Source: Sphingobium sp. 15-1
GTDB taxonomy: Bacteria > Pseudomonadota > Alphaproteobacteria > Sphingomonadales > Sphingomonadaceae
Length of the DNA: 64,000 nt
Direction of reading: 5' to 3'
Assembly: GCF_013375535.1 (NCBI RefSeq)
Contig: NZ_JABXJG010000002.1
Span: forward strand, 186,001 to 250,000
Part shown: in pieces, positions 46,658 to 61,771 of the stretch
Layout: the number at the start of each line of letters is the position of its first letter
How positions within the stretch are numbered: the first letter of the stretch is position 1
Position numbers and translations under genes: made by a program
The notes under the pieces: generated by a model
Databases searched by the model: none
Told to the model about the DNA's origin: nothing
The model's input: only the letters and a program-made list of their open reading frames with translations

Positions 46658-47403
46658 ACCCGTTCACCCCTTAGCAGGGCTGCAAGCGCATGTGCCTGTT
46701 CCTGGACATCGCCTTCGATCATCCGGCAGTCAGTGATCGACCGCATGCCGGCCAACGCGGCGCTGCCCGCCAATTGCAGGCCGGTGGCGGCGACCGGCCG
46801 GGCGTCCCGATGCGCGATCCGCGCCTGGCGGGCCTGCATGACATTCTTCATCAGCGGCTTGCGCAGCCGGTTGCGACGGTCATTCGTCGCGCTGACGACA
46901 AGCGGACGATCGACCGTCAGCCATTCCTCATGGCTGCCCGCCTCGCGCATCAGGCGCACGTCCGGCTCTGCCTGCACCACCTGCGCCCGCCCGAAAAAGG
47001 GCAGGCCCAATATGGCGGCCAGCATCGGCGGCACCAGCCCATCGTCGCAATCCCCAAATTCGCGGCCTATGAGGATCAGGTCAGCGCCATGCGCCGCCTG
47101 AGCCAGCCTTTGCGCGGTCGCTGCCTGATCCCAGGCGTCCGGCAGGGCCAGGGTCGACACGTCCGCCACACGGAGCGCGCAAATCGAGCGGGCAAGCTTC
47201 TCTCCTTCGGAACCGCCCGCCACAATGGCGCTCAGCTCGACATCGGGCCGCGCATCGCGGATCTTGAGCCCAAGTTCCAGCGCCGCCTCATCGAAGGGAC
47301 TGAGCAGCAGCCGGTCGCCACTGCGCAGGGGCAATCCTCAGGCCACGGGCTTCACCGGCCATTTAGGGTCTAGCACCCCCGCGATCAGCACCATGATCTT
47401 CAT
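46654..47403 (-). pseudogene. etfB: Electron transfer flavoprotein, beta subunit, interrupted by TGA at codon 22
   Basis: The natural start is the ATG at 47403, which overlaps the preceding flavoprotein stop (ATGA). The protein begins MKIMVLIAGVLDPKWPVKPVA, the standard first beta-strand of ETF beta, then meets TGA at 47338-47340. The same frame resumes GLPLRSGDRLLLSPFDEAALELGLKIRD and runs intact to the end, including the AMP/FAD domain (DLILIGREFGDCDDGLVPPMLAAILGLP). A TTG at 47334 just after the stop could restart translation and give 226 residues, but that would lack the first strand of the fold. So it is either a recent nonsense mutation, a sequencing error or a reinitiation case. I treat it as probably broken. 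Confidence 0.65.
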
Positions 47404-48749
47404 GGGGCCGCCACCGCCTGTCCCGCGATCAGCCCGAATACCACCGCCTTGCCGAGCGCCGAACCGGTCATATAGGCGACGCCATGAAAGCCGCCCGTGA
47501 CTTCGCCAGCGGCGTAGAGTCCCTCGATCCAGTGACCGTCAGTGCGCAGGACGCGCGCTTGGCTATCGATACGCAGGCCGCAATAGGTGCCGAACACCAC
47601 GGCGGTCGAGGGATAGGCGTAGAAGGGCCCCCGATCGATCCTGCGCAACGCGCCATGGTGATGGACGAGATGCGATCGCCCGAAATCGGGATCATGCCCG
47701 GCGTCGACATGGCCGTTGTAGCGATCCACGGTCGCCGCCAGCGCATCGGGATCAATCTCGATCTGCGCGGCGAGGTCCGCCAGCGTCTCCCCGACATAGA
47801 AGAGTCCTTCCTCCAGCCGCCGCCCGAAATCCAGGATGCGGACGAGGTTGTTGCCGGTATCGAAAATCGCCTGGTCCATGATCTGATAGGCGCAATGCCA
47901 GGGCTGGGCCATGACCGCATCGCCCAGCAGCTTGTAGGAAATGCTCTCATCGACGAAGCGCTGACCGTCCTGATTGACGGCGATCGCGCCCTTGTAGACG
48001 GCTTGCAGGCTGTGGTCGTTGCTCTCGTCGGTCGGATGCTTGCCGAAGGTGCCCTTCACATAATCCATGTCGCGCAGGTCCGCGCCCAAGGCCTGCGCCA
48101 TCTGCAAACCGTCGCCCTGCGATCCTGCTCCCGCAACGAACACGGCTGGGGCATATTGAGGGGCATAGCGATCAAGCAGCGCCGGATTCTTGGCAAAGCC
48201 GCCGCTGGCGATGATGACGCCGCGTGCCGCTTCCAGCGTTTCGCCATTTTCGAGAACGACGCCAATGACACGCCCGTGCGGGCTCTGTAGCAGCGAGCGC
48301 GTAGCCATGCCGGGGCGATAGCCGATATGGCCGGTTGCTTCCGCCGCCGCATGAAGGGCGCGGACCATATCCGCGGGATCGACGCTGTGCACACGCGGCA
48401 CCGACTGGCCCGCCGCCGTCTCGATCACCGGGCTGAACGCCACGCCTGCGGACTTCAGCCATGCATAGGTGGCAAGCTGCGCATCGCAATAGGTCCTCAC
48501 CAAATCCGCGTCGTTTACCCGCTGGCCCACTTCGCGCAGGTCGGTGAACAGCAGGTCGGGACTGTCAACCACACCCTGATCTGCCTGAAGATCGGTGCCC
48601 GCAAAGGCGAGGCACCCACCGCTCATGGCCGAGGAACCGCCGGATTCAGCCAGTTTTTCCAGCAGCACGACGCTGAGGCCCTGCTGCGCGGCGGACAGGG
48701 CGGCGGCCCAGCCAGCCGCCCCGCCGCCAATGACGATCACATCCATCAT
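47400..48749 (-). CDS. FAD-dependent dehydrogenase (fumarate reductase/3-ketosteroid dehydrogenase-like flavoprotein)
   Basis: A 449-residue flavoprotein. The N-terminal FAD motif DVIVIGGGAAGWAAALSAAQQGLSVVLLEK is followed by GGSSAMSGG. The C-terminal FAD closure is DSQARVLRTDGHWIEGLYAAGEVTGGFHGVAYMTGSALGKAVVFG. The middle substrate domain has the fumarate reductase-like layout. It would introduce or reduce a carbon-carbon double bond in a pathway intermediate, with electrons going to the ETF genes that follow by ATGA overlap. It is itself coupled to the racemase-like gene upstream. The exact substrate is unknown. Confidence 0.88.
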   Translation of the reverse strand: MMDVIVIGGGAAGWAAALSAAQQGLSVVLLEKLAESGGSSAMSGGCLAFAGTDLQADQGVVDSPDLLFTDLREVGQRVNDADLVRTYCDAQLATYAWLKSAGVAFSPVIETAAGQSVPRVHSVDPADMVRALHAAAEATGHIGYRPGMATRSLLQSPHGRVIGVVLENGETLEAARGVIIASGGFAKNPALLDRYAPQYAPAVFVAGAGSQGDGLQMAQALGADLRDMDYVKGTFGKHPTDESNDHSLQAVYKGAIAVNQDGQRFVDESISYKLLGDAVMAQPWHCAYQIMDQAIFDTGNNLVRILDFGRRLEEGLFYVGETLADLAAQIEIDPDALAATVDRYNGHVDAGHDPDFGRSHLVHHHGALRRIDRGPFYAYPSTAVVFGTYCGLRIDSQARVLRTDGHWIEGLYAAGEVTGGFHGVAYMTGSALGKAVVFGLIAGQAVAAP

Positions 48750-49546
48750 GCCGGGTTCAATCCGTAGAAATCGAGTATCTCGTCGCGTCGGATCGGATCG
48801 GGAATCGCTCCGAAATAGCCTGTCCCCGCCGCTTGCCTGCCAGCCCGGCGGGCATCCACCGCCGCTTCCGCAGCCCGCACCCAGGCGCCAAGGGAATCGA
48901 TCACCGGCACGCCATCCACTTCACTGACGCCGTTCATGGCAAGCAGCACATTGAGCGGCGCCTCACCCGGCACGATCGCCTCCGCACCCTTGCCGATCAG
49001 ATCTCGGGCAGCGACACGGAAGCGATCGATCAACGGGCCGGGGCTCGCAAAGCCCGCAAGCACATCCGTGAACCGGAAGCCGACGTCGCAGGCGCCGACG
49101 AGCCGGCAACCGATGCCGTGGCGGCGGACATTGTCGCGATAGAGTTCGGCCAGTTCCGGAATGAAAACCAGCGCCCCGAACCGCCGCCCGTCGTCCACCG
49201 CCGCCCGTGCCGCGCATTCGCCATAGCCCACCACCGGAATGTCGACCAAGGCGCGGATTTCCCGCAGCCCCGGTTCCGGCAGGGTGCTGAGTGCGAAGGC
49301 ATCATAGCCCTGCCGTTCCGCCATCAGCGCGCCCTGCATGAACTGGATCGCGTGCAGGAACTGGAAGCCGACATGCTTGATGTCGTCGCCCGGATAGTTG
49401 GTCCGATAGGTGCCTTCGCGCATGCCGTGCATGTCGATCACCGTGCCGGGCCGCGCCACCCGCTTGAAATGCGCCTTCAGCGCGTCATCATAGGCCGCAA
49501 GGTCGCTGAGGACGGTGAAGCTCTGGTGCCAGATGCGGATGCCCAT
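48746..49546 (-). CDS. Asp/Glu/hydantoin racemase-fold protein lacking both catalytic cysteines
   Basis: A 266-residue member of the Asp/Glu/hydantoin racemase superfamily, which includes maleate isomerase and arylmalonate decarboxylase. By eye the family landmarks align with LSTLPEPGLREIR and VVGYGECAARAA, then VPGEAPLNVLLA and GVPVIDSLGAWVRAAE. At the two catalytic positions of hydantoin racemases (C in CFDDPGL and C in LGCAGM) this protein has Thr and Glu. A Cys remains only in GYGEC. Racemisation by the two-cysteine mechanism is therefore unlikely; a lyase, isomerase or hydrolase role on a pathway acid is more plausible. TGAGATG joins it to the monooxygenase gene, and ATGA to the flavoprotein. 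Confidence 0.78.
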   Translation of the reverse strand: MGIRIWHQSFTVLSDLAAYDDALKAHFKRVARPGTVIDMHGMREGTYRTNYPGDDIKHVGFQFLHAIQFMQGALMAERQGYDAFALSTLPEPGLREIRALVDIPVVGYGECAARAAVDDGRRFGALVFIPELAELYRDNVRRHGIGCRLVGACDVGFRFTDVLAGFASPGPLIDRFRVAARDLIGKGAEAIVPGEAPLNVLLAMNGVSEVDGVPVIDSLGAWVRAAEAAVDARRAGRQAAGTGYFGAIPDPIRRDEILDFYGLNPA

Positions 49547-49547
49547 C

Positions 49548-50750
49548 TCAGTCGGCCTTCGGCTTTTCGTAAAGCAGCGGCGGCAGCTCGCCGCTCAGCA
49601 GATAGCCGCCCAGGGCACCGGCATTATTGTCGGCATCCTGGGTGACATGGTTGGCGGCGACCAGCGTGTCGCGCAGATAGCGCTGGATCGGGTTGGACTT
49701 GTACACGCCCCGCGCCCCGGTGCATTTGTAGAGCGTCAGCACCGCTTCCTCGCACTCGCGGCCGATGCGCGCCATGTCGAGCATATAATGGATGCGATCC
49801 TCGGTGGAGACCAGTTCGCGCCGTTCGACGATCTGCGTGCAATGCGCCATCATCTGTTCCATGCGGGCCTGCGATGCGCGGACCTTTGCAACGGCATTGG
49901 CGAGGCGATCCTTGACATAGGGGCTGAGCCGCGTCGCCGCGCCCGATCCATTGTCGACCCGCACCTGCATCTGGTCGATGAAGACGTCGATCGCCCCCTG
50001 CGCGAAGCCGATGATGACCGAAGAGACCGACGAATAGAAGACCATCGCAAAGGGGAAGAGATAGTTGGTCGGCCGATCGTCCATCTTGTAATCGATCATC
50101 GAATGGGCGCGGTGATCGGGGATGAAGGCGTCCTTGATCAACAGGCTCTTGGAGCCGGTGCCGGACAGGCCGAACGTGTACCAGTCGTCGATGATCTCAT
50201 AATCCTCGCGCTTCACCAGCAGGGCATGGCGGTCGATCGGCACGCCCTTTTCATTGCGTTCCAGCGCGCCGATAAAGGCCCAGGCGCCATGGTCGCTGCC
50301 GCTGGAGGTGGGCCAGCGGCCCTTGAGGCGCCAGCCGCCCTCCACCTTGGTCAATTCGCCCACCGGCGGATAGGAGGATGCGATGATGGTCTGGTCATCC
50401 TCGCCCCACACATCCTGCGCGGCGCGATCGTCCATGACGCCGAATTCCCAGTTATGGACGCCCAGGATCATCATTGCCCATGCGCTGGCGCAGCAGCCTC
50501 GGCCCAGTTCGCCCAGCACCCGCATGAAGACGATCGGGTTCATTTCCCATCCGCCATATTTTTTCGGCTGGAGGATGCGGAAGAAGCCGGCTTCGCGGAA
50601 CATGTCGATCACATCGTCCGGCACGCGGCGCGCCTCCTCAATCGCGTCGGCGCGGGCGCGCAGGCCGGGAACCATGGCGGCGGCGCGGGCGACAAGTTCC
50701 TTGGCTGTAGGAATTTCACTGGCCTTCTGGTCCAGTACGGCAACGGACAT
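49548..50750 (-). CDS. FMN/FAD-dependent aromatic monooxygenase, oxygenase component (HsaA-like)
   Basis: A 400-residue flavoprotein with an acyl-CoA dehydrogenase fold, close to HsaA and other two-component phenol hydroxylases. It would hydroxylate a phenolic ring to a catechol with reduced flavin from the partner reductase. Recognisable parts are FREAGFFRILQPKKYGGWEMNP, GCCASAWAMMILGVHNWEF, the flavin contact SGSDHGAWAFIGA and WYTFGLSGTGSKSL, and RYLRDTLVAANHVTQDADNNAGALGGYLLSGELPP at the end. The start at 50750 follows AGGAG by eight bases; a GTG-type upstream start at 50780 is less likely. It lies 42 bp after the flavin reductase gene. Confidence 0.9.
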   Translation of the reverse strand: MSVAVLDQKASEIPTAKELVARAAAMVPGLRARADAIEEARRVPDDVIDMFREAGFFRILQPKKYGGWEMNPIVFMRVLGELGRGCCASAWAMMILGVHNWEFGVMDDRAAQDVWGEDDQTIIASSYPPVGELTKVEGGWRLKGRWPTSSGSDHGAWAFIGALERNEKGVPIDRHALLVKREDYEIIDDWYTFGLSGTGSKSLLIKDAFIPDHRAHSMIDYKMDDRPTNYLFPFAMVFYSSVSSVIIGFAQGAIDVFIDQMQVRVDNGSGAATRLSPYVKDRLANAVAKVRASQARMEQMMAHCTQIVERRELVSTEDRIHYMLDMARIGRECEEAVLTLYKCTGARGVYKSNPIQRYLRDTLVAANHVTQDADNNAGALGGYLLSGELPPLLYEKPKAD

Positions 50751-50792
50751 GGCGGGCTCTCCTTGTATCTTGTTATTCACGTATCTTGTTGT

Positions 50793-51335
50793 TCACTGGA
50801 TCGGGCGTTCGGGCAGGAATGCCCCGTCGAAATAGATGAGCGGGTCGCCCCCCGGTTCGCGCAGCAGCACGCCCAGCACATCGCAGATGAAGATGTCGTG
50901 CGTGCTGGCTTCGATGCTTTCGCCCACAAGGCAGTCGAAGCTGGCGAGCGCGCTTCCGAGCAAAGGCGCGCCGCTGGTGGCGGTGAGCCAGTTGCCTTCC
51001 GCGAATTTCTCCTCCGGCGGGACGCCTCCGGCAAAGCGCTTGGCCAGCGGCAGGGCATCATCACCCAGCACATTGACGCCCAATATGCGCGACTGGCTGA
51101 TGATATTATGCGCCCAGGTGGAGCGGTTGATGCAGACCAGCAGCCGCGCCGGTTCCGCCGTAACGGACGCCACCGCCGTCGCCGTCAGCCCGGCCCACCC
51201 CTCACGCCCCTGCCCTGGCGCGACCGAAGTGATGATCGTGCACGCCCCGGCCAGGCGCCGCATGCCCTGCCGAAACAGGTCGGGCTTGGGCGCCATGGGC
51301 GACGACGGGATGGAATGGGCGAGCGCGGCGGCCAT
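50793..51335 (-). CDS. Flavin reductase of the two-component monooxygenase (HsaB-like)
   Basis: A 180-residue flavin reductase-like split-barrel protein. The FMN-binding part is DLFRQGMRRLAGACTIITS, GWAGLTATAVASVTAEPARLLVCINRSTW, and FAGGVPPEEKFAEGNW. The end HDIFICDVLGVLLREPGGDPLIYFDGAF resembles HsaB/HpaC members. It supplies reduced flavin to the oxygenase encoded next. The ATG at 51335 has GGAGAGG upstream. It sits between the C-C hydrolase gene (5 bp) and the monooxygenase gene. Confidence 0.92.
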   Translation of the reverse strand: MAAALAHSIPSSPMAPKPDLFRQGMRRLAGACTIITSVAPGQGREGWAGLTATAVASVTAEPARLLVCINRSTWAHNIISQSRILGVNVLGDDALPLAKRFAGGVPPEEKFAEGNWLTATSGAPLLGSALASFDCLVGESIEASTHDIFICDVLGVLLREPGGDPLIYFDGAFLPERPIQ

Positions 51336-51340
51336 GGCTG

Positions 51341-52228
51341 TCAGACCTCTCCGGTGGTCAGATATTTGACCACCACGGCATCGAATTCCTCGGGGCTTTC
51401 ATATTGTGGCCAGTGACCGCAATCCTTCCGCATGACGTAGAGCTTGCCTTTCTTGAGGCGCGGCAGGGCGGCCTCGGCGGCGGGGACGTCATGGATCGGG
51501 TTGTGCGTGGTCCACAGCAGCAGGGCTTCCTGCTCGATCTTTTCCAGTTCCATCGCGTCGGGCATCGCCTTGCCGCCGCCAGCCTTGGCCTGGTTCAGAC
51601 GGGCGAAGACGAGTGGGGCGGACTTCTGAAAATCGGGCCGCGAATAGATGGCGAGGCGGGATTCGATCAGCTCGTCGGTCAGAAGATCCCAATTGCCTTC
51701 ATAGATGAGCCACTGCATCCGTTCCTTGATGCTCTCGAAGCTGGGCGGCTTACCGTAATTCTTCTCGGTCAGCGTGGCGAGGTTGACCAGATCCTGGCGG
51801 CCCTTGTCAGTCATGATCGGAATGCCGCCGGCGGTATTGAGGATCAGGCGCAGGCAGCGTTCGGGATATTTGACCGCGAACAGGCCGGTTACCAGCCCGC
51901 CCAGAGATTCGCCGGAAATATGCGCCTTCTCGATGCCGAGCACGTCCATCAACTCCTTGAGTTGATCGGCATAGATGCTGGCGGGATATTCGATGTCGGT
52001 CTTCTTTTCCGACAGGCCGTGGCCGACGAAATCGAAGGCGATGACGTGGAAATGCTCGCCCAATGGCACCACATTTTTGGAATAGGCCTCGATATGGCCG
52101 CCGATGCCGTGCATCAGGAACAGGGCTTCGGGTTTGCCCTTGCCCGCTTCGGCAATGCGTACGCGGCCGAAGCTGGGCGTGTCGACATAGCGGATTTCGG
52201 CGCCGAGAAAATCGATCCAGATAGACAT
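51341..52228 (-). CDS. Meta-cleavage-product C-C hydrolase (alpha/beta hydrolase, HsaD/BphD-like)
   Basis: A 295-residue alpha/beta hydrolase. It would cleave the 2-hydroxy-6-oxo-dienoate made by ring fission. Features are LFLMHGIGGHIEAY (oxyanion region), AFDFVGHGLSEK, the nucleophile S108 in ISGESLGGLV, and the catalytic His in KDCGHWPQYESPEEF. The last phrase is typical of meta-cleavage hydrolases. The start at 52228 has AGGGAG upstream, which rules out the GTG at 52234. It lies 29 bp after the extradiol dioxygenase gene, and the order dioxygenase-hydrolase-reductase-monooxygenase supports the pathway. Confidence 0.92.
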   Translation of the reverse strand: MSIWIDFLGAEIRYVDTPSFGRVRIAEAGKGKPEALFLMHGIGGHIEAYSKNVVPLGEHFHVIAFDFVGHGLSEKKTDIEYPASIYADQLKELMDVLGIEKAHISGESLGGLVTGLFAVKYPERCLRLILNTAGGIPIMTDKGRQDLVNLATLTEKNYGKPPSFESIKERMQWLIYEGNWDLLTDELIESRLAIYSRPDFQKSAPLVFARLNQAKAGGGKAMPDAMELEKIEQEALLLWTTHNPIHDVPAAEAALPRLKKGKLYVMRKDCGHWPQYESPEEFDAVVVKYLTTGEV

Positions 52229-52257
52229 AATCACTCCCTGATTGGATTGGCCACTAT

Positions 52258-53157
52258 TCAGTCGGCCATGTTCATGTTGCGGGCATGGCCCCAGTCCGAC
52301 ATGCGGTCGTAGATTTGCGGCTCCCAGTTCGCCTCGTCGATCACCAGGCCGCCATGACCCAGTTCCATCCCGAAGCCCGAGGGAGTCCGCATGTAAAAGC
52401 TGAACATCTGGTCATTCGGATGGTGCCCGAGTTCCAGCACGATCGGGATACCGGCCTTCTTGGCGCGATCGCAGGCCAGGCCGACATCATTCATGTCCCG
52501 ATATTCCAGCATCAGGTGATTGAGCCGCTTGGACGACGGGAAAGAGCCTGTCGCGAGCGAGTGGTGACGCCCAGTGGCGCTGTGGAAGAAGGTCGCGTCC
52601 GCGTAGACGCCCGGCGCGATGAGCTGCCGGATGCGGTCGCTGTAGCGCAGACCCAATATGTCGCGATACCAGGCGACGCCTTCGTCATAATCACGCGAGA
52701 CCGGCAGGATATGGCCGATGCCAAGGTCGCCGGTCGTGAAGCCCGCGCCGCGCAAGATGGGCGAAAGATGGCCGCCATCCTGAACGAAACCAGTGCGCCC
52801 GCTGAAAAATTCGTGGGTGACGCCATTCGGGTCGGTGAGGCTGTAGAGCCGGACAACGCAGCGCGCCGCCGCTCGCCCGGCATCTTCCTCACGCACGTCC
52901 GCACCCTTAGCGCGAAGCGCGGCGACATAGACGTCCAGTTCCTCCGCCGAGCCGACATCCCAACCCGCATGGGTCAGGTCATCGTCAACCCCCTGGGTGG
53001 CGAGCATCCGCCAGGGATGATCGTCCATGCGCAGGCCAAGGCCGCCGTCGGGTGTCGTCACCGTGCCCAGGCCAACGATGTCGGTTGCAAAGCTGCGCCA
53101 GGCGTCAAGATCGCTGACGCTGAAAACAACATAGGCGAGATTTTGCAATTCTGCCAT
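52258..53157 (-). CDS. Type I extradiol (VOC) dioxygenase, HsaC/BphC-like
   Basis: A 299-residue two-domain vicinal-oxygen-chelate dioxygenase that opens a catecholic ring next to its hydroxyls. The iron ligands in the C-terminal domain are H149 (GIGHILPV), H214 (RLNHLMLEY) and E265 (GFGMELGHGG), all in place. Active-site YMRTPSGFGMELG is the standard signature. The N-terminal domain is the degenerate copy. It is the first gene of the minus-strand operon and faces the LysR gene across a 123-bp gap. Substrate preference (steroid-type, biphenyl-type or other catechol) cannot be read from the sequence. Confidence 0.93.
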   Translation of the reverse strand: MAELQNLAYVVFSVSDLDAWRSFATDIVGLGTVTTPDGGLGLRMDDHPWRMLATQGVDDDLTHAGWDVGSAEELDVYVAALRAKGADVREEDAGRAAARCVVRLYSLTDPNGVTHEFFSGRTGFVQDGGHLSPILRGAGFTTGDLGIGHILPVSRDYDEGVAWYRDILGLRYSDRIRQLIAPGVYADATFFHSATGRHHSLATGSFPSSKRLNHLMLEYRDMNDVGLACDRAKKAGIPIVLELGHHPNDQMFSFYMRTPSGFGMELGHGGLVIDEANWEPQIYDRMSDWGHARNMNMAD

Positions 53158-53280: not shown

Positions 53281-54183
53281 ATGCAACTGAGGGATTTCGA
53301 CGTCAACCTGTTGGTCACGATGGAGGCGATCTGGACCAACCGCAACGTATCCAACGCTGCAAGGACGCTGAACCTGGCGCAGTCCACGGTCAGCGCCGCG
53401 CTCAACCGGCTGCGGCAGGCGCTGGACGATGAACTGTTCACCTGGTCGGGCAGCGAAATGGTGCCGACGCCGCTGGCCGAACAAATCATGCCGGACGTGT
53501 CCCAATTGCTGAATGGTGTGCGGGCAGTCATCACCAAGTCACGCGGCCAGATCGATACTGTCGAGCGGCGGCTGGTGATTGCGACGGCAGACTATGTCGC
53601 GGCGCTGGTCGGCGGGCCGTTGCTGACGCGGGCGGCTATAGAGGCTCCACAACTGTCCTTCGACTTTGTCGAGATCCGGCCGCAATTCCTCAACCGCTCG
53701 ACCCGGCCAGACATCGACCTGTTCGTCTTTCCGGCCAATGCGCTGCGCGTATCGGGCATGGAACGGGAATTGCTCTATCGCGACACTTATGTCTGCATCG
53801 GCGCGGAGGATAATGACGCGCTCTACCCCGGAATGTCGGCCGATGAATTTCTGGCGCTGCGCCATGTCGGTTATTCGGCGCTGCCCCGCGTGTCGTTCAA
53901 CCATGAAACCATGTTGTGGGACGAGCTGGGCAAGGCCGCGAACCTCCGCCTCACCATGGGCAATTATCTGATCTTCGCCCGGATCGTCGCAGGCAGCGAC
54001 GCGGTCGCCATCCTGCCCAGGCGACTGGCCACGACGCTGAAGGGGGAATGGAAGCTCAAATGGATCGAGCCTCCCCTTCCCACCCCGGAAATCGACATCT
54101 CGGCCACCTGGCGGCCCGATCAATCGAAGGACATTGCGCTGACCTGGCTGCGTCAGGCGCTGGTCGACATCATGGCTATGTAG
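53281..54183 (+). CDS. LysR family transcriptional regulator
   Basis: A 300-residue regulator of the NodD/LinR-like branch. The winged helix-turn-helix covers residues 1-60 (MQLRDFDVNLLVTMEAIWTNRNVSNAARTLNLAQSTVSAALNRLRQALDDELF). The LysR substrate-binding domain fills the rest. GCGAGAGCG precedes the ATG. The same frame is open far upstream, but that part is antisense to the dioxygenase gene and not coding. It is divergent from the meta-cleavage operon and convergent with the flavoprotein at 54191, so it probably activates the operon in response to a substrate or ring-cleavage intermediate. Confidence 0.92.
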   Translation: MQLRDFDVNLLVTMEAIWTNRNVSNAARTLNLAQSTVSAALNRLRQALDDELFTWSGSEMVPTPLAEQIMPDVSQLLNGVRAVITKSRGQIDTVERRLVIATADYVAALVGGPLLTRAAIEAPQLSFDFVEIRPQFLNRSTRPDIDLFVFPANALRVSGMERELLYRDTYVCIGAEDNDALYPGMSADEFLALRHVGYSALPRVSFNHETMLWDELGKAANLRLTMGNYLIFARIVAGSDAVAILPRRLATTLKGEWKLKWIEPPLPTPEIDISATWRPDQSKDIALTWLRQALVDIMAM

Positions 54184-54190
54184 TCCGGCA

Positions 54191-55642
54191 TCAGCCCATG
54201 GCGGCGTGGGCACCGGCGATCCGGCCGAACACCGCGCCGCTGGTCAGGCCCGCGCCGCCGGGATAGCGATCATAATAAAGGCCGCCGACCAGTTCGCCCG
54301 CCGCGTAGAGCCCGGCGATCGCCTCGCCTTCCTCGCTCTGGACGCGGGCCTGCTCGTCGATCGCCAATCCGCCGAAGGTCAGCGTGATGCCGCATGTGAC
54401 CTCATAAGCGACAAAGGGCGGCTCGCGCAGCGCCCGCGCCCAATTGCTCTTGTTGATCGCAAGACCCCGGGTGCCGCGTCCATCCTTCACCGCAGGGTTG
54501 AAGGGCACGTCCTCATCCACCGCTGCATTGAATTCCGCGATTGTCCGCAGCATGGCGTCGCGATCAATGCCTTCCAGCTTGGCCGCCAATCCTTCCAGCG
54601 TATCCGATTCGAACCGCGCCGCTCGCGGCACGCGATATTCGTCGGGCAGGATAGGGATCGACTGGGCGTCGAACAATTGCCAGCCCGTGCCGCCGGGCTG
54701 GCGCAGAATCGCCGCGCCCATTTTCGAGTAGGTATAGTTGCGGAAATCAGACCCTTCGTCGAAAAAACGTTCGCCATTTCGGTTCACGACTATACCGAGC
54801 GTGAAATAATTTTTCTGCTGGTTGAGCATGGCGATATTACCGAAGTCCTCGGCTCCCGCGTCGAAGAAGACGCTGTGGCAGCCCGACCAGTTGCCGTGCG
54901 ACCGCGCCCCGATGGCGAAGGCGGCCTGGATTACGTTGCCCGTATTGTAGCGCGACCCTCGGACCTTCGCCAGATCCCAGCCCTGCCCCAAAGTGCGCAC
55001 CCGCCATTCGGCATTGGCATGATAGCCGCCCGCCGCCAACACGACCGCATCGGCCTGCAGCGCCTCGCCATTGACGATGACGCCCTCCACCCTATGCCGA
55101 TTGCCGATCAATTGTTCGACCTTATGGTCATAGCGGATCGTGACGCCCAGCGCTTCGGCACGGCGGAACAGCGCGTCCACCAGGCCGACTCCGCCGCCTG
55201 CCGTCTCGACCGTCAGGCCGCCCCAGAAGATGTTCCGCCCGTCGACCTTGAAGGATTGCCGGCCATAAGCGGGCAGGAAGCGCACGCCCTGATCGCGCAT
55301 CCATGACAGGGTCGGCAGGCTTTGCTGCACCAATATGTCGATCAGCAGCGGGTCGGCGCGATAGCCGCTGAGTTCGCACAGATCGAGGTAGAATTTCTCC
55401 GCATCATAGCGCCCGAAGTCGCTGCTGTCCCGTTCCTGCTCGGTAAGGTCGGGGACGAGGCGGACAATATCCTCCACCCCGTCATAGACGGTGCGGAACG
55501 CCCCGCCGGTAAAGGCGGAGTTGCCGCCCCGCGCCGTTTTCGGCGCCCGTTCCAGCACGGTGACCTTCGCGCCGCCCTCCGCCGCGGCGATCGCCGCGCA
55601 GAGCGCCGCATTGCCCGCGCCCACCACCAGGACATTCCGCAT
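54191..55642 (-). CDS. FAD-dependent dehydrogenase of the TcuA (tricarballylate dehydrogenase) type
   Basis: A 483-residue flavoprotein. The N-terminus NVLVVGAGNAALCAAIAAAEGGAKVTVLERAPKTARGGNSAFTGG has the FAD motif with the NAALCAA variant seen in TcuA proteins. The C-terminus is LTFGGLAIDEQARVQSEEGEAIAGLYAAGELVGGLYYDRYPGGAGLTSGAVFGRIAGAHA. TcuA oxidises tricarballylate to cis-aconitate. This protein is likely a relative acting on a polycarboxylate or other saturated acid. It is a single gene divergent from the TBDR and related to the paralog at 59607. Confidence 0.88.
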   Translation of the reverse strand: MRNVLVVGAGNAALCAAIAAAEGGAKVTVLERAPKTARGGNSAFTGGAFRTVYDGVEDIVRLVPDLTEQERDSSDFGRYDAEKFYLDLCELSGYRADPLLIDILVQQSLPTLSWMRDQGVRFLPAYGRQSFKVDGRNIFWGGLTVETAGGGVGLVDALFRRAEALGVTIRYDHKVEQLIGNRHRVEGVIVNGEALQADAVVLAAGGYHANAEWRVRTLGQGWDLAKVRGSRYNTGNVIQAAFAIGARSHGNWSGCHSVFFDAGAEDFGNIAMLNQQKNYFTLGIVVNRNGERFFDEGSDFRNYTYSKMGAAILRQPGGTGWQLFDAQSIPILPDEYRVPRAARFESDTLEGLAAKLEGIDRDAMLRTIAEFNAAVDEDVPFNPAVKDGRGTRGLAINKSNWARALREPPFVAYEVTCGITLTFGGLAIDEQARVQSEEGEAIAGLYAAGELVGGLYYDRYPGGAGLTSGAVFGRIAGAHAAMG

Positions 55643-55665
55643 ATAGTCTCTCCTATCATGAATGA

Positions 55666-55690
55666 CGATAATCGCTATCGATAATTATCG
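55666..55690. promoter_or_regulatory. Overlapping palindromes in the flavoprotein/TBDR promoter region
   Basis: CGATAATTATCG (55679-55690) is a perfect palindrome. Overlapping it, CGATA-N5-TATCG (55666-55680) is a second inverted repeat. They lie 24-48 bp before the flavoprotein start and about 95 bp before the TBDR start. A dimeric repressor site is likely; the regulator is not obvious, since LysR sites usually look different. Confidence 0.5.
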
Positions 55691-55783
55691 CTTCACTCGA
55701 TGATGGCGATGTTCTAGCCCTGTGGTCAAGGGGAAAGCCGAGGCATCGTCAAAACAAGCCGACGGCCAATGGGAGAGAAGAAG

Positions 55784-58093
55784 ATGACGTTCGCGCGCCT
55801 AGCAGCAGCCGTGTCCAGCACCGCAATTGCCATGTCCTTTCTGCCCGCCGGGGTCGCTCTGGCGCAGGAGGCGGCGCAGCCCGACATGGGCGCCGACATC
55901 ATCGTCACCGCTACCAAGCGGGCGGAATCGATCAACGATGTTCCCATGTCGATCAGCGCCGCTTCCGGAGACGAGCTGGTCAAGGCGGGCATCCAGAGCG
56001 CCAATGATCTGGGCAAGATCGTGCCGGGCTTCACCTTCACCCAGTCGGCCTACAGCACGCCGGTCTATTCGCTGCGCGGCGTGGGCTTCTACAATTACGA
56101 CATCGGTTCCACGCCGACCGTGACGGTCTATCAGGACGAGGCGCCCCTGCCCTTTTCCGCGATGACCCGCAGCGCCAGTTTCGACCTGGAACGGGTGGAA
56201 GTGTTGAAGGGTCCACAGGGCCTGTTGTTCGGGTCCAATTCGACCGGCGGTGCGGTGAACTATATCGCCGCCCGCCCGACCGACCATCTGACCGCCGGGG
56301 CCGACGCCAGCTATGGCCGCTTCGATAGCTGGGATCTGGGCGGCTTCGTGTCCGGCCCCCTGAGCGATACGGTTGCGGTGCGGATCGCGGCCCGGCATGA
56401 AGGATCGGGCGAATGGCAGCGCAGCGCAACCCGGCCCAATGATCGCAACGGCAAGCGCGACTTCACCCAGCTTCGCGGCCTCATCGATTATAAGGGAGAG
56501 CGTTTGAAGGCGAAGATCGGCTTCAACGCCTTCTGGGACAAATCCGACGTGCAGGCGGCGCAGCTTATCCAGGTCAATCCGCTGATACCGCCCTTCGTCG
56601 ATCCGCGCCTGGCGAACCAGCCGATCGTCACATCCGACGCCCGTGTGGGCGACTGGACGGCGGGCCTCAATCCCCGCCGCGACGACCGCCAGTGGCAGGT
56701 AACGGGCCGGTTCGACTATGAGCTTAGCGACAGCGTGACGCTGACCTCGCTCACCTCCTATTCCGACTATAAGCAGCATGACGTGGTCGACCCTGACGGC
56801 ACCGCGCTGGTGCTGGTCGACACGATCGACAGCGGGCGGATCAAGGCCTTCTTTCAGGAAGTGCGGCTTTCGGGCGAGTTCGGCTCCGGCAGTCGCTGGA
56901 TCGTGGGCGCCAACCATGAAAACAACAAGGTGGATGAAGTCCAGCGGCTGACTTCGACCGAAGCGTCCGGCTTCGCGCCCTTCGCCGTCTTCTTCGGCCT
57001 GCCGGTGCCCGACCAGATCCCGATTTCTTCGGAGCAGCGGTTCAAGACCTATGGCGTCTTCGGCAATGTCGACATGGTGCTGAGCGATACCATCACGCTG
57101 CATGGCGGGCTTCGCTATACCGACACGTCGGACAAGTTCACGGGCTGCACCGGCAACAGCGCCAATGGTAGTCTGGCGGTCGGCCTGGGCATCATCACCC
57201 AGGGCGATCCCCTGGCGCTCGGTCCCAATCCGCAATGCACGCAGCTCAATGCCGCTCTGCAACCGACGATCACCCGGACCAAGCTGGCGCAGGACAATCT
57301 GTCCTGGCGCGGCGGCATCGACTTCAAGCCCAATAAGGACACGCTGCTCTATGCCAGCGTCAGTCGCGGTTATAAGGTCGGCGCCTTCCCGTTGATCCCG
57401 GCATCGTCGGACTCGCAATATACGCCGGTGACGCAGGAAAAGCTGACCGCCTATGAAGCCGGTTTCAAGCTGACGCTGCTGGATCGGAAACTGCAACTGA
57501 ACGGCGCGATATTCCACTATGACTATCGCGATAAGCAGACTCTGGGCAGCGTTATTCTGACACCCAATATATTCGGCCCGCTGAACCTGCTGGTCAATAT
57601 TCCCAAGTCGAAGGTGACGGGTGCCGAACTACAGGCGGTGCTGCGTCCGGTGCGGGGGCTGACACTGAATGCAGGCGTGACTTATGTCCGAAGCCGCATC
57701 GGGGACTTCGTGAACTTCGATCCCTATGGCGTGGTCGAGAATTTCAAGGGCGAATCCTTCCCCAACACGCCGCGCTGGCAATGGTCGGTGGCCGCCGATT
57801 ACGAATTCCCGGTATCGCAGACGCTCAACGCCTTTATTGGCGGCAATATCAACGGCCGCAGCAAGACCAACGGCGCACTCGGGCAAAATCCGACGCTGGC
57901 GATCGACGGCTATACTCTTATCGACCTGCGCGCCGGAATTGCCAGCGCCAACGACCGCTGGCGCTTCAGCATCTGGGGCCGCAATGTCGGTGATAAATAT
58001 TATTGGACCAATGCCTACAAGATCGCGGACGTATCCGCCCGCTTCGCCGGTATGCCAGCGACCTACGGCGCGACGCTTTCTGTCCGTTACTGA
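55784..58093 (+). CDS. TonB-dependent outer-membrane receptor
   Basis: A 769-residue TBDR, similar in type to that at 6377. The signal peptide ends PAGVALAQE. The TonB-box-like GADIIVTATKRAESINDVPMSISA is followed by a plug with LRGVGFYNYDIGSTPTV and VLKGPQGLLFGSNSTGGAVNYIAARP. The barrel ends TYGATLSVRY with a terminal aromatic residue. GGGAGAGAAG fits the ATG at 55784 better than that at 55769. It heads a run of genes: isochorismatase-fold protein, lyase, flavoprotein and SDR. The substrate of that pathway is its likely cargo. Confidence 0.93.
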   Translation: MTFARLAAAVSSTAIAMSFLPAGVALAQEAAQPDMGADIIVTATKRAESINDVPMSISAASGDELVKAGIQSANDLGKIVPGFTFTQSAYSTPVYSLRGVGFYNYDIGSTPTVTVYQDEAPLPFSAMTRSASFDLERVEVLKGPQGLLFGSNSTGGAVNYIAARPTDHLTAGADASYGRFDSWDLGGFVSGPLSDTVAVRIAARHEGSGEWQRSATRPNDRNGKRDFTQLRGLIDYKGERLKAKIGFNAFWDKSDVQAAQLIQVNPLIPPFVDPRLANQPIVTSDARVGDWTAGLNPRRDDRQWQVTGRFDYELSDSVTLTSLTSYSDYKQHDVVDPDGTALVLVDTIDSGRIKAFFQEVRLSGEFGSGSRWIVGANHENNKVDEVQRLTSTEASGFAPFAVFFGLPVPDQIPISSEQRFKTYGVFGNVDMVLSDTITLHGGLRYTDTSDKFTGCTGNSANGSLAVGLGIITQGDPLALGPNPQCTQLNAALQPTITRTKLAQDNLSWRGGIDFKPNKDTLLYASVSRGYKVGAFPLIPASSDSQYTPVTQEKLTAYEAGFKLTLLDRKLQLNGAIFHYDYRDKQTLGSVILTPNIFGPLNLLVNIPKSKVTGAELQAVLRPVRGLTLNAGVTYVRSRIGDFVNFDPYGVVENFKGESFPNTPRWQWSVAADYEFPVSQTLNAFIGGNINGRSKTNGALGQNPTLAIDGYTLIDLRAGIASANDRWRFSIWGRNVGDKYYWTNAYKIADVSARFAGMPATYGATLSVRY

Positions 58094-58155
58094 TCCTTTC
58101 CGCCGGTCGGTGACCTGTCCCCGCCCGGCCTGTCCCGAAACCCGGAGAATGATGA

Positions 58156-58749
58156 ATGACGTCCGCGCTTCTACTGCTCGATCTGCAAAATGAAATGGTC
58201 GACCCCAAGGGCAAGGTCGGAGCGCATGGGCTGGCCAAGATCGTCGAGGAACGGGGCGTGCTGGCCAATGCCCGCCGCTGCCTCGACGCGGCACGCGGCG
58301 CCGGCATGGCGGTGGCCCACGTCCGGCTCGGCTTTCGTCCCGACTATGCTGATTGCCTGAGCGTCGCCGCCCGGATCGGCGGGCTGAAATCCAATCGCGC
58401 CGCGATCGTCGGGGAGTTCGGCACCGAATTCCATCCCGACGTCGCGCCGACCGATGGCGAGCTGGTGATCACCAAACAGTGCGTCAATCCCTTCTTCAAC
58501 ACGGGCCTGATGACCTGGCTGATGCAGAAGGGCATCAAGCGGCTCTATATGGGCGGGGTCGCCACCCATCTGGTCGTGGAAAGCACCGCCCGTTTCGCGG
58601 ACGATGCCGGCTTCGCGCCCGTCGTGATCGAGGATATCTGCGCCGCCCCCAATCCGGCGCTGCATGATCATTTCATCACGATGATCGCCCCCGCCGTCGG
58701 CACGGTCAGCAACAGCGGCCAGTTCGTCCAGGCGGCGCGGGAGGGCTGA
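58156..58749 (+). CDS. Isochorismatase-fold hydrolase lacking the catalytic cysteine
   Basis: A 197-residue isochorismatase/cysteine hydrolase-fold protein. The catalytic Asp is D9 in ALLLLDLQNEM and the Lys is in VITKQCVNPFFNTGL. At the nucleophile position, where most amidases read ATNVCVESTAR, this one reads ATHLVVESTAR, so the cysteine is Val. That resembles true isochorismatases and other members that do not use Cys. An amidase reaction by a thioester is therefore unlikely, and hydrolysis of a vinyl ether, hydration or another acid-base reaction is possible. It is the second gene of the plus-strand cluster, 4 bp before the lyase gene. Confidence 0.85.
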   Translation: MTSALLLLDLQNEMVDPKGKVGAHGLAKIVEERGVLANARRCLDAARGAGMAVAHVRLGFRPDYADCLSVAARIGGLKSNRAAIVGEFGTEFHPDVAPTDGELVITKQCVNPFFNTGLMTWLMQKGIKRLYMGGVATHLVVESTARFADDAGFAPVVIEDICAAPNPALHDHFITMIAPAVGTVSNSGQFVQAAREG

Positions 58750-58753
58750 TCCC

Positions 58754-59602
58754 ATGGCGCTGCGGGACATCGCGTCGCGCCGGGAAGCCGTGCTGGCGCC
58801 CGGCGCCGCCAACGCCCTCTTTGCGCGGATCATCGAGGATCTGGGCTTCGAATGCGTCTATGTGACCGGCGCCGGCATCGCCAATATGGCATTAGGCGCG
58901 CCCGACATTGGCCTGACGACGCTGGACGACATTGCCGGGACGGTGTCGCGCATGGCCGACGCCGTCAGCCTGCCGCTGATCGTCGATGCCGACACCGGCT
59001 TCGGCAATGCCGTCAACACGTTTCGCACGATGAAGGTGCTGGAGCGGGCGGGCGCATCCGCCATCCAGTTGGAGGACCAGCTTTTCCCCAAGCGCTGCGG
59101 CCATTTCAACGGCAAAGGCGTGATTCCGCTGGGCGAGATGCTACCCAAGATCCGCGCCGCCGCGGATGCGCGGACACGTGACACCCTGATCATCGCCCGC
59201 ACCGATGCGCTGGCGGTAGAGGGCATCGACGCCGCACTGGAGCGGGCCGAGGCCTTTGTCGAGGCAGGCGCGGACATCACCTTCGTCGAAGCGCCGCGCG
59301 ATGCGGCGCAGATGCGGCGCATCGCAGCTCTGCCCGTGCCGCAGATCGCCAATATCGTCCATGGCGGCAAGACCCCGCCCTTGCCCCAGTCCGAGCTGGC
59401 CGACATGGGGTTCGGTCTGGTCCTCTACGCCAATGCCGCCTTGCAGGTGGCGGTGCGAGCAAGCGCGACCGTGCTTGGTTCGCTCAAGGTCACCGGCTCG
59501 CTCGATGCCGTCCACGACCTGCTCGCCTCTTTCGAGGAACGGCAAGCAGCGGTGGCGAAACATCATTGGGACGCGCTCGAACAGCGGTTCAAACCGGAGT
59601 AA
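58754..59602 (+). CDS. Isocitrate lyase/PEP mutase superfamily lyase (methylisocitrate lyase-like)
   Basis: A 282-residue TIM-barrel enzyme. K113-R-C-G-H117 in LEDQLFPKRCGHFNGK is the isocitrate/2-methylisocitrate lyase signature, with the general acid Cys115 present. The Mg site includes IVDADTGFGNA and ARTDALAVEG. With the Cys intact, a retro-aldol lyase is favoured over PEP mutase or oxaloacetate decarboxylase, which lack it. It could cut a 2-alkylmalate or methylisocitrate-like acid into pyruvate or succinate plus a second fragment. It sits between the isochorismatase-fold gene and a TcuA-like dehydrogenase, which suggests a tricarboxylate or substituted malate as pathway intermediate. 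Confidence 0.9.
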   Translation: MALRDIASRREAVLAPGAANALFARIIEDLGFECVYVTGAGIANMALGAPDIGLTTLDDIAGTVSRMADAVSLPLIVDADTGFGNAVNTFRTMKVLERAGASAIQLEDQLFPKRCGHFNGKGVIPLGEMLPKIRAAADARTRDTLIIARTDALAVEGIDAALERAEAFVEAGADITFVEAPRDAAQMRRIAALPVPQIANIVHGGKTPPLPQSELADMGFGLVLYANAALQVAVRASATVLGSLKVTGSLDAVHDLLASFEERQAAVAKHHWDALEQRFKPE

Positions 59603-59606
59603 AATC

Positions 59607-61022
59607 ATGCACCTGATCGTTGTGGGCAGCGGCATTGCGGGCCTGAGCGCCGCGCTGACCGCGGCCGAAGCCGGAGCGCGGGTCACGCTCATCGAACGCG
59701 CTGCGGAGGGCGAGCATGGCGGCAACACCCGCTATACCGAAGCCTATCTGCGCATGAAGTCGATGGACGAGGTGGCCGACGATTTCGTCGATCATTTCAT
59801 GGCCAATGCCGGGGGCTATACCGACCCCAGCATCGAACAGGAAATGGTGCGTGACCATGCCGACTGGTCACCCCTTGCGCGCAGCCAGTCGATGGTCGAC
59901 CCGGACCTGCTGTCGGCCTTTGCCGACCATGCCGGGACGACCCTGCGCTGGCTGGAACGAGCCGGATTGCGCTTCGATTTCCTGCCCACCGCCTTCATCA
60001 CCACCACGACCACGCGCCTGCTGCCGGTCGGCGGCGGGCTGGCGATGGTCGAGACGCTGACGGAGGCGTGCAAGGCGAAGGGCGTGGAGTTCCGCTTCGA
60101 AACCACCGCCCGGTCGCTGCTGATGCAGGACGGGCGCGTCACGGGGCTGGCGACCAGCCGGGGCGCGATCGAGGGCGACGCCGTGATCCTCGCCTGCGGC
60201 GGGTTCGAGGGCAATCCGGAAATGCTCGCCCGCTATGTCGGCCCGCAGGCGATCAACCTGCGTCCCGTGGCGCGGGGAGGCCATTATAATAAGGGCGAAG
60301 GCATCCGCATGGCGCTGGACATCGGGGCCGCGCCCAATGGCGATTTCGGCAGCTATCATGCCGAACCCATCGATCCCCGTTCAGGTCTTGCGGAACCGGC
60401 GATCTTCACCTTCCCCTATGGCGTGCTGGTCAACAAGGACGGCCTGCGTTTCACCGACGAAGCGCCCGGCACGGTCGATGCCCATTATGAAAATGTCACC
60501 CGGCGCATCTATCAGCAGCGCGACGGCATCGCCTGGTTGATCGTCGACGCCCGGATCGAGGATGTGCCCAACTGGCAGAAGGGCAGCCGTACCGACCAGC
60601 CGCCGGTCAGGGCCGACAGCATAGAGGCGTTGGCGGATGCGATCTGCGTGCCCCGCGATGCGCTGGCCGACAGCATCGCCCGCTATAATGCAGCCTGCGG
60701 GGCAAGCGAATTCAAGCCGTTGGAGCGTGACGGTCTCGCCACCCAAGGCCTCACGCCGCCCAAGTCCAACTGGGCGCGGCCAATCGACCGGGCGCCCTAT
60801 CTCGCCTGGCCTATCATCTCGGCCAATGTCTTCACCTTCGGCGGATTGAAGGTCGATCGCCACGCCCGTGTGCTGGACCAGGACGGCCGCGCCATCGATG
60901 GCCTTTATGCTGCCGGGGAGACGATGGGCCTCTATTATCGCACCTATACCGGGTCGACATCCGTGCTGCGCGGCGCGGTGTTCGGGCGGCAGGCCGCGCT
61001 CCACGCGAGCGCAGGCGCATGA
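59607..61022 (+). CDS. FAD-dependent dehydrogenase of the TcuA type, second copy
   Basis: A 471-residue flavoprotein related to the one at 54191. The FAD site is LIVVGSGIAGLSAALTAAEAGARVTLIERAAEGEHGGNTRYTEA. Inner motifs include VILACGGFEGNPEMLARYVG. The C-terminus reads TFGGLKVDRHARVLDQDGRAIDGLYAAGETMGLYYRTYTGSTSVLRGAVFGRQAALHA. The ATG at 59607 lies four bases after the lyase stop. Its stop overlaps the SDR start. The tight packing with the lyase suggests it acts one step before or after it, dehydrogenating a saturated polycarboxylate. Confidence 0.9.
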   Translation: MHLIVVGSGIAGLSAALTAAEAGARVTLIERAAEGEHGGNTRYTEAYLRMKSMDEVADDFVDHFMANAGGYTDPSIEQEMVRDHADWSPLARSQSMVDPDLLSAFADHAGTTLRWLERAGLRFDFLPTAFITTTTTRLLPVGGGLAMVETLTEACKAKGVEFRFETTARSLLMQDGRVTGLATSRGAIEGDAVILACGGFEGNPEMLARYVGPQAINLRPVARGGHYNKGEGIRMALDIGAAPNGDFGSYHAEPIDPRSGLAEPAIFTFPYGVLVNKDGLRFTDEAPGTVDAHYENVTRRIYQQRDGIAWLIVDARIEDVPNWQKGSRTDQPPVRADSIEALADAICVPRDALADSIARYNAACGASEFKPLERDGLATQGLTPPKSNWARPIDRAPYLAWPIISANVFTFGGLKVDRHARVLDQDGRAIDGLYAAGETMGLYYRTYTGSTSVLRGAVFGRQAALHASAGA

Positions 61023-61771
61023 AGACGCGGTTCGCGCTGGACGATATGGTCGTGCTGGTCACTGGCGCGGGCGGCATGATCGGCGACGCGATCGCACGGC
61101 GTCTGGCCGAAGGCGGCGCGCGGCTGGCGCTTGCCGACCGGGAGGCGCCATCGTCGGCGGGCAATGGCCGGGGCTACGCGCTCGACCTTGCCGACGCGGC
61201 GCAGGTGCGCGAACTTGTCGATTTGGTGATCCGCGATTTCGGCCGGATCGACGCCCTCGTCACCGCGGCGGGGGTCACGTCGCTGGGATCGTTCGAGGAC
61301 ATCAGCCTGGAGGAGTGGGACCGGGTGCACGGCATCAACCTGCGCGGCCTGTTCCTTGCCAATCAGGCGGTGATCGCGCCGATGAAGGCGGCGGGTTTCG
61401 GCCGGATCGTCAATATCGGGTCCGTCCTTGCGAAGAATGGCGGCAATCCGCGTCCCTGGATCGACCCGCAGGAACAGGCGCGCGCCGGCAACGCCGCCTA
61501 TGGCGCGGCCAAGGCGGGCGTTCATGCGCTGACCCTCTATCTCGCCAAGGAACTGGCGGCGCACGGCATCACCGTCAACGCTGTCGCCCCCGGCCCGATC
61601 GCCAGCCCAATGACGGCCAGCTTCCCCACCGCGCTGGCGCAGCAAATCCCGGTGGGCCGGATGGGCCGGTCCGATGAGGTGGCCGGGGCGGTCGCCTGGC
61701 TCTGCACGCGCGAAAGCGCCTTTATCACCGGCGAGATTATCGATGTGAACGGCGGCCTCTGGATGGATTGA
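61019..61771 (+). CDS. SDR family NAD(P)-dependent oxidoreductase
   Basis: A 250-residue short-chain dehydrogenase. The cofactor motif is VVLVTGAGGMIGDAIARR near residue 12. LVTAAGVTSLG is the AAG/NAG element. The active site is NIGSVLAKNGG...AAYGAAKAG, with a longer than usual loop before YxxxK. The end ITGEIIDVNGGLWMD is typical. ATGA links it to the flavoprotein gene. It probably oxidises or reduces a hydroxy acid or alcohol intermediate of the plus-strand pathway. Confidence 0.92.
   Translation: MKTRFALDDMVVLVTGAGGMIGDAIARRLAEGGARLALADREAPSSAGNGRGYALDLADAAQVRELVDLVIRDFGRIDALVTAAGVTSLGSFEDISLEEWDRVHGINLRGLFLANQAVIAPMKAAGFGRIVNIGSVLAKNGGNPRPWIDPQEQARAGNAAYGAAKAGVHALTLYLAKELAAHGITVNAVAPGPIASPMTASFPTALAQQIPVGRMGRSDEVAGAVAWLCTRESAFITGEIIDVNGGLWMD

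Follow-up and report, generated by a model that had tools for sequence, protein, structure and literature searches.

In the window analysed here, 64,000 nt of contig C2 (positions 186001-250000) from the 5.8 Mb, three-contig genome of Sphingobium sp. 15-1, 16 genes between 45101 and 61771 form a cluster in which ring-cleavage enzymes stand beside flavoproteins and a lyase. The 16 genes are tentatively interpreted as one catabolic system with two modules, the first of which would cleave a ring and release a carboxylate that the second would degrade; we hold this interpretation with somewhat less than even confidence. An initial annotation limited to 54191-61771 had described two flavoproteins, a lyase with the motif KRCGH, an SDR family enzyme and a TonB-dependent receptor lying together, and all of them were found in place. 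The cluster extends beyond that interval. It also contains a gene for an isochorismatase-fold protein and, at 47400-48749, another FAD_binding_2 flavoprotein gene, as well as an electron-transfer flavoprotein (ETF) pair. The FAD_binding_2 flavoproteins number three rather than two. Overall, the initial observation was confirmed and its interpretation is partly supported.

The genes of the cluster are as follows (window coordinates, strand, product and family evidence):

45101..45886, minus: HYD, putative FAA-hydrolase-fold hydratase of the 2-hydroxypentadienoate hydratase type (Pfam FAA_hydrolase)
45923..46657, minus: ETFA, ETF alpha, short N-terminus (Pfam ETF_alpha, 88 bits)
46654..47334, minus: ETFB, ETF beta, short N-terminus (Pfam ETF, 63 bits)
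47400..48749, minus: FCC, FAD_binding_2, flavocytochrome c / urocanate reductase type without the dicarboxylate-binding residues (TIGR01813, alignment, tree)
48746..49546, minus: RACE, allantoin/hydantoin racemase fold, catalytic Cys pair replaced by T88 and E195 (Pfam Asp_Glu_race, model, Foldseek)
49548..50780, minus: HsaA-like oxygenase of a two-component phenol monooxygenase (NF045629, 313 bits, cut-off 450)
50793..51335, minus: HsaB-like flavin reductase (top NCBIfam match RutF, 137 bits; every listed match below its cut-off)
51341..52234, minus: HsaD/BphD-like C-C hydrolase (NF045632, 138 bits, cut-off 400)
52258..53157, minus: HsaC/BphC-like extradiol dioxygenase (TIGR03213, 261 bits, cut-off 366)
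53281..54183, plus: LysR-type regulator (Pfam HTH_1, LysR_substrate)
54191..55642, minus: FAD1, FAD_binding_2 dehydrogenase (NF006130, 548 bits, above 369; TIGR02485, 288 bits, below 372.55)
55769..58093, plus: TonB-dependent receptor (Pfam barrel and plug)
58156..58749, plus: ISOCH, isochorismatase fold, nucleophile Cys replaced by Val (Pfam Isochorismatase, 122 bits)
58754..59602, plus: LYASE, isocitrate-lyase/PEP-mutase family, KRCGH, GGKTP pocket loop (TIGR02317, 273 bits, cut-off 354)
59607..61022, plus: FAD2, FAD_binding_2 dehydrogenase, start at 59607 (NF006130, 361 bits, below 369; TIGR02485, 217 bits, below 372.55)
61019..61771, plus: SDR family oxidoreductase (Pfam adh_short_C2)

Conservation of the cluster and separate occurrence of its modules

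Besides the window, 12-16 of the 16 genes lie near each other in 13 genomes or loci: Sphingobium chungbukense DJ77, S. estronivorans AXB, six sphingomonad or Hyphomonadaceae records (L006-L011), the genomes G033, G118 and G384, Methylocella tundrae and a Roseiarcus metagenome-assembled genome. The count is 12-15 when weak, probably non-orthologous matches are excluded (HsaD, 26-29% identity in eight loci; the receptor, 25-26% in two). For L004-L008, L010 and L011, the missing genes would be positioned where the retrieved sequence stops. Such retention indicates that the genes on both strands belong to one system rather than to a chance grouping, which agrees with the initially noted position beside ring-cleavage genes. 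In DJ77, 12 genes were compared and show 88-99% identity. The SDR is 62-88% identical in the 13 clusters, and the receptor 67-93% in nine sphingomonad-type loci; neither the receptor nor the LysR gene had a match in the fetched Methylocella and Roseiarcus DNA. An HsaD ortholog was not found in L006-L011, L030, L066 and L067. A distant alpha/beta hydrolase gene (26-29%) follows the SDR gene in eight loci.

A contig scan with LYASE recovered 17 loci, to which sampled genomes added others. Among species-named genomes its nearest relative is in S. chungbukense DJ77 (95% identity). A lyase of at least 86% identity occurred in only 3 of 199 sampled genomes of the family, the source genome counted, so the cluster is accessory; at E<=1e-60 there was no match in the three other listed genomes of the genus. 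In searches of open-licence literature, no listed title or abstract opening described the cluster or such a pathway.

The two modules also occur apart. Plasmid 3 of Variovorax sp. PBL-E5 carries FAD2, SDR, ISOCH, RACE, FCC, ETFB and ETFA together with a FAD1 gene nearby (8 of the 16 genes), next to three tripartite-tricarboxylate binding-protein genes and a PrpD gene. Identities to the window proteins are 66% (FAD1), 62% (FAD2), 61% (FCC), 59% (RACE), 52% (SDR), 41% (ETF) and 40% (ISOCH). The 29 kb Variovorax stretch gave no match to HsaA-D, and the whole plasmid gave nothing for the lyase beyond a 41% partial match. Conversely, a Diaphorobacter plasmid carries a ring module with HsaC (47%), HsaA (55%), HYD (49%), a 25% hydrolase and a flavin reductase, and the flavoproteins were not found in the 35 kb around it; a 36% ISOCH relative lies about 13 kb away, and this module has tricarboxylate binding-protein genes of its own. 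Since the modules are found separately in these two organisms, the cluster of the window joins two building blocks to a lyase and to genes for transport and regulation.

The Methylocella locus additionally contains, by family search, a sigma-54 regulator with an XylR_N domain (a domain of aromatic catabolism), HsaF/HsaG-type genes, an ETF-QO gene and a branched-chain-type ABC permease; its HYD ortholog (66%) adjoins the HsaG/HsaF-type genes. Two members have a gene with a Pfam sulfatase match after the cluster (L030 4109-5653; L053 12291-13718), a hint at aryl sulfate substrates.

The lyase, flavoproteins and cysteine-free folds

The initial annotation had called the lyase methylisocitrate-lyase-like. 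This holds for the superfamily, as D78, D80, K113, C115, G116 and H117 are invariant in 20 of 20 aligned rows, but not for identity with PrpB. LYASE stays below both PrpB models (TIGR02317, 273 bits against 354.4; NF008455, 245 against 353), and its substrate loop is GGKTP instead of the TEFGxTP of PrpB; it was therefore rejected as the PrpB of the methylcitrate cycle. The loop reads GGxTP in all 27 aligned relatives, with x = K in 23. The form xGGKTP is shared with the petal death protein (IEGGKTP), a sequence likeness to this 2-alkylmalate lyase type that is limited to the single loop. The predicted model (pLDDT 86, pTM 0.80) has the expected fold, and methylisocitrate lyases are its first structural neighbours, with the petal death protein at rank 16. 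A 37% identical paralog in the same genome (L002/L088, the 28th aligned row) has the loop TEFGRSP. Its neighbours, read by eye, are CoA-transferase- and acyl-CoA-dehydrogenase-like genes. The sole PrpF gene of the genome is about 6 kb off; elsewhere the genome has three PrpD matches.

The neighbours of lyase relatives were compared in 14 loci outside the cluster (L012, L014, L016-L019, L048-L051, L054, L055, L078 and L103), which are the loci examined and do not form a random sample. The relatives were defined by the loop and 50-68% identity; five of the loci are plasmid records picked from 202 with a match, the flanks vary from 8 to 20 kb, and the weak, partial L020 and the short loci L021-L027 were excluded. 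Many neighbour genes were read by eye from translations, and some were confirmed by family search. Eight of the loci contain PrpF, three contain PrpD or aconitase without PrpF, two a dihydroorotase-like gene alone and one transporter genes alone. FAD2-PrpF-lyase runs were seen in L054 and L055. In Diaphorobacter, a prpC-acnD-prpF run (L103 3922-9843) ends in a GGKTP-type lyase that is likewise below the PrpB cut-offs (284 and 259 bits). Together with the neighbours of FAD1 and FAD2 described below, these loci agree with the polycarboxylate-style context suggested initially. The cluster itself differs: a six-frame scan with profiles built from 2-4 sequences each, which recovered the PrpF beside the own-genome paralog (L088), gave no hit to PrpF, PrpD or aconitase across the 18 cluster stretches, namely the window and 17 loci. 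Judged from gene content, LYASE would thus work in the cluster without its usual partners, and a plain sequence of dehydrogenase then lyase, as first proposed, is not supported. The combination of lyase, PrpF and aconitase resembles the end of nicotinate fermentation; compared with the 2,3-dimethylmalate lyase system of that pathway, the cluster has no isomerase or hydratase of known kind.

FAD1 and FAD2 had been called TcuA-type. As in the TcuA/TcuB/TcuC system, a FAD_binding_2 dehydrogenase gene adjoins a LysR gene (the latter ends at 54183, next to the FAD1 end), and FAD1 passes one of the two TcuA models, NF006130, which FAD2 narrowly misses. Both proteins fall below TIGR02485, whereas the three scanned TcuB-linked TcuA proteins pass both models, with 556-588 bits on TIGR02485. 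TcuB (TIGR02484) had no match in the source genome; the search is able to find TcuB, since 14 of 190 class genomes scored above the cut-off of this model. FAD1 is 35-38% identical to TcuB-linked TcuA. All six aligned TcuB-linked TcuA proteins have the basic residues in the motifs WPKRY and RPGITFTY, which none of the five aligned FAD1 sequences has. The tyrosines common to TcuA are kept in FAD1, and an Arg precedes the shared Tyr by four residues (FRNYTY). In a tree of 55 rows, FAD2, FCC and TcuA each formed a single well-supported group; FAD1 formed a single group with weak support (91/55) nearest to TcuA, and long branches that meet in this tree call for caution. Therefore, TcuA was rejected as the enzyme identity of FAD1 and FAD2.

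FCC passes TIGR01813 (293.7 bits, cut-off 285.45), its Variovorax counterpart not (274.1), and its closest PDB matches are urocanate reductase and flavocytochrome c. The alignment places a Tyr where most of these enzymes have Arg, and the His and Arg of the dicarboxylate site are absent; the catalytic and dicarboxylate-binding roles of the aligned FCC and FAD residues are presumed here. Outside the cluster, PrpF, PrpD or a tricarboxylate transporter neighbours FAD1-type genes in 4 of 5 loci (PrpF and PrpD in L012 and L014, TctA in L032, PrpD and binding proteins in L093, none in L033), and 8 of 17 FAD2-type loci contain such a marker (PrpF in five, PrpD or binding proteins in three). The lyase thus has a strong polycarboxylate association; that of FAD1 is fair and that of FAD2 moderate. 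As the ETF genes adjoin FCC, ETF is likely the electron acceptor of the flavoproteins. ETFA and ETFB are shorter than in Methylocella (L013; 244 versus 341 aa and 226 versus 259 aa). The cut-offs are 27 bits for the FAD domain of ETFA, which scores 88, and 26.7 for ETFB, which scores 63; at its N-terminus, ETFA has an ETF domain of 26.4 bits, slightly below the cut-off.

RACE (model pLDDT 86) matched allantoin racemase 3qvk best in Foldseek, with a TM score of 0.73 by query length. All 14 cluster rows have Thr88 and Glu195 in place of the catalytic Cys pair; a broader set of 14 rows keeps T88 throughout and E195 in at least 90%. According to passages of PMC12661438, an E. coli member of the racemase fold uses a Thr/Cys pair, and these passages do not mention a Thr/Glu pair. 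RACE relatives occur with FAD2 in L058 and with the lyase and aconitase in L078, which places RACE on the acid-handling side. In G262 (L077-L080) there are four RACE-type genes, 40-48% identical, one of them beside a lyase relative and an aconitase gene.

The ISOCH gene sits between the receptor and LYASE genes. Its nucleophile Cys is replaced by Val in 14 of 14 cluster rows, in Variovorax and in one Diaphorobacter relative. True isochorismatases also lack the nucleophile Cys and act by a vinyl-ether hydrolase mechanism, so vinyl-ether or hydration chemistry would be possible for ISOCH by analogy. A maleamate/maleate role of the nicotinate type was considered for ISOCH and RACE because an alpha/beta hydrolase, an isochorismatase fold and a racemase fold co-occur; the loss of the cysteines from the 14 aligned cluster rows spoke against it, and it was rejected.

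The ring-cleavage genes share with the steroid A/B-ring pathway (KstD, HsaA-HsaD) and with biphenyl meta-cleavage a two-component phenol hydroxylase, an extradiol dioxygenase, a C-C hydrolase and a hydratase. HsaA, HsaC and HsaD are described as steroid degradation enzymes (PMC4810484). In the window, all four Hsa equivalog cut-offs are missed (HsaA, 313 against 450; HsaB, 59 against 230; HsaC, 196 against 450; HsaD, 138 against 400), and membership in the steroid pathway was rejected on these scores; KshA was not searched for. To our knowledge, steroid degradation as described does not include the second module. Five genes of the source genome exceeded the cut-off for 4-hydroxy-2-oxovalerate aldolase.

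Proposed pathway and alternative explanations

In the favoured two-module reading, the TonB-dependent receptor would take up a substrate that is, or becomes, an ortho-substituted phenol. The HsaA/HsaB-like enzymes would convert the phenol to a catechol, the HsaC/BphC-like dioxygenase would open its ring, and the HsaD-like hydrolase would split the ring product into 2-hydroxypenta-2,4-dienoate and a side-chain acid, R-COOH. The dienoate would be removed by HYD and an aldolase encoded elsewhere in the genome. R-COOH, probably a di- or tricarboxylate, would be oxidised by FAD1, FAD2, FCC with the ETF pair, the SDR, ISOCH and RACE, the electrons passing to ETF and not to a TcuB-type partner. LYASE would cut a C-C bond of a 2-hydroxy acid of the methylisocitrate or alkylmalate kind. 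Variovorax would import a comparable acid directly. Gene content, co-conservation, the separate modules, the residue losses and the family placements are observed, and from them we infer the order of reactions, the nature of R-COOH, the coupling to ETF and the reaction of the lyase. A more specific version, in which phenol cleavage feeds an ETF-coupled polycarboxylate module and the cysteine-free RACE and ISOCH replace the isomerisation and hydration for which PrpF and PrpD or aconitase stand beside lyase relatives elsewhere, is considered unlikely.

Several results weigh against the two-module reading. Because none of the 18 cluster stretches contains PrpF, PrpD or aconitase, it is not evident from the cluster how the hydroxy acid cleaved by the lyase would arise. 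A highly charged substrate is made less likely by the absence, in FAD1, FAD2 and FCC, of basic residues found in TcuB-linked TcuA or fumarate reductases. Nine of the 17 FAD2-type loci outside the cluster have no polycarboxylate marker gene, which slightly lowers the polycarboxylate reading and slightly raises the aromatisation route described below. Binding proteins of tripartite transporters are very common in Variovorax and its relatives and also accompany the Diaphorobacter ring module, so the Variovorax neighbourhood is weak evidence. The lyase of G384 has an identity of just 50%, and its gene is found about 5 kb away from the block; a LysR relative (49%) adjoins it. Within the sphingomonad set, HsaA distances did not track those of the lyase, ISOCH or the receptor (Spearman 0.03, -0.25 and -0.14, respectively); adding distant loci gave 0.66 for HsaA and the lyase over 78 pairs. 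Clean co-inheritance is thus not seen in sphingomonads and a strict one-pathway claim is weakened; parts of the cluster may have been exchanged between modules.

The chemically attractive alternative is aromatisation upstream of ring cleavage, modelled on 3-ketosteroid dehydrogenases and on ChcC1/ChcC2 of cyclohexanecarboxylate aromatisation: the SDR would oxidise a ring alcohol to a cyclohexanone, the three FAD_binding_2 enzymes would desaturate it to a phenol for HsaAB, HsaC and HsaD, and the lyase would trim a side chain. We regard this as possible, if somewhat unlikely. An SDR and FAD enzymes ahead of HsaA-D resemble steroid A-ring degradation, and SDR plus FAD_binding_2 desaturases are shared with ChcC1/ChcC2. 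FAD1, FAD2 and FCC do score on the 3-ketosteroid dehydrogenase and ChcC1/ChcC2 models, but always below the cut-offs (74-158 bits against 900-1000 for ChcC1/ChcC2). At the position presumed to be the acid site of fumarate reductase, each of the three has Tyr in place of Arg; the same Tyr is found in TcuB-linked TcuA, so this residue does not discriminate. Aromatisation also fits poorly with the polycarboxylate neighbours in 4 of 5 FAD1-type and 8 of 17 FAD2-type loci, and with the Variovorax flavoprotein module, which has no adjoining ring-cleavage genes.

A pathway for an N-containing aromatic, with RACE, ISOCH and LYASE drawn from a hydantoin- or pyridine-type toolkit, appears improbable. 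Lyase relatives adjoin dihydroorotase-like genes in L016, L048, L049 and L051 and Cys-containing isochorismatase-family genes in L048, L049 and L051; the L051 dihydroorotase-like protein had no Pfam match at 1e-15 and was detected only by a profile of annotated Methylobacterium proteins. Against this, ISOCH and RACE of the cluster have lost the cysteines that such reactions need, and the dihydroorotase-like profile had no match in the 18 cluster stretches. Likewise improbable is a true tricarballylate-type pathway, in which FAD1 and FAD2 would act as TcuA to make aconitate-like acids for a housekeeping aconitase and then a methylisocitrate lyase. The NF006130 score of FAD1 and the PrpF or aconitase genes beside the lyase relatives examined speak for it, whereas the TIGR02485 scores, the missing TcuB, the lost basic residues and the separate TcuA group in the tree speak against it.

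If the two-module reading is right, the cluster encodes a catabolic route that couples the cleavage of a phenol ring with carboxylate reactions independent of CoA esters. The annotation 'TcuA' would then include enzymes unlikely to be tricarballylate dehydrogenases, and RACE and ISOCH would represent two conserved families of known fold that use another chemistry than their cysteine-dependent relatives. The block conserved in DJ77 and the separate Variovorax module lend themselves to genetic tests.

Surroundings of the cluster

A MacB-type ABC cassette lies to the left of the cluster in the window (41616-44550), and by eye a similar ABC ATPase gene lies to its right in S. chungbukense DJ77 (L004 13061-13750); these opposite positions suggest rearrangement around the cluster. 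Further to the left, between 11583 and 31454, several genes resembling TonB-dependent receptors, gamma-glutamyltransferases and esterases were recognised by eye only.

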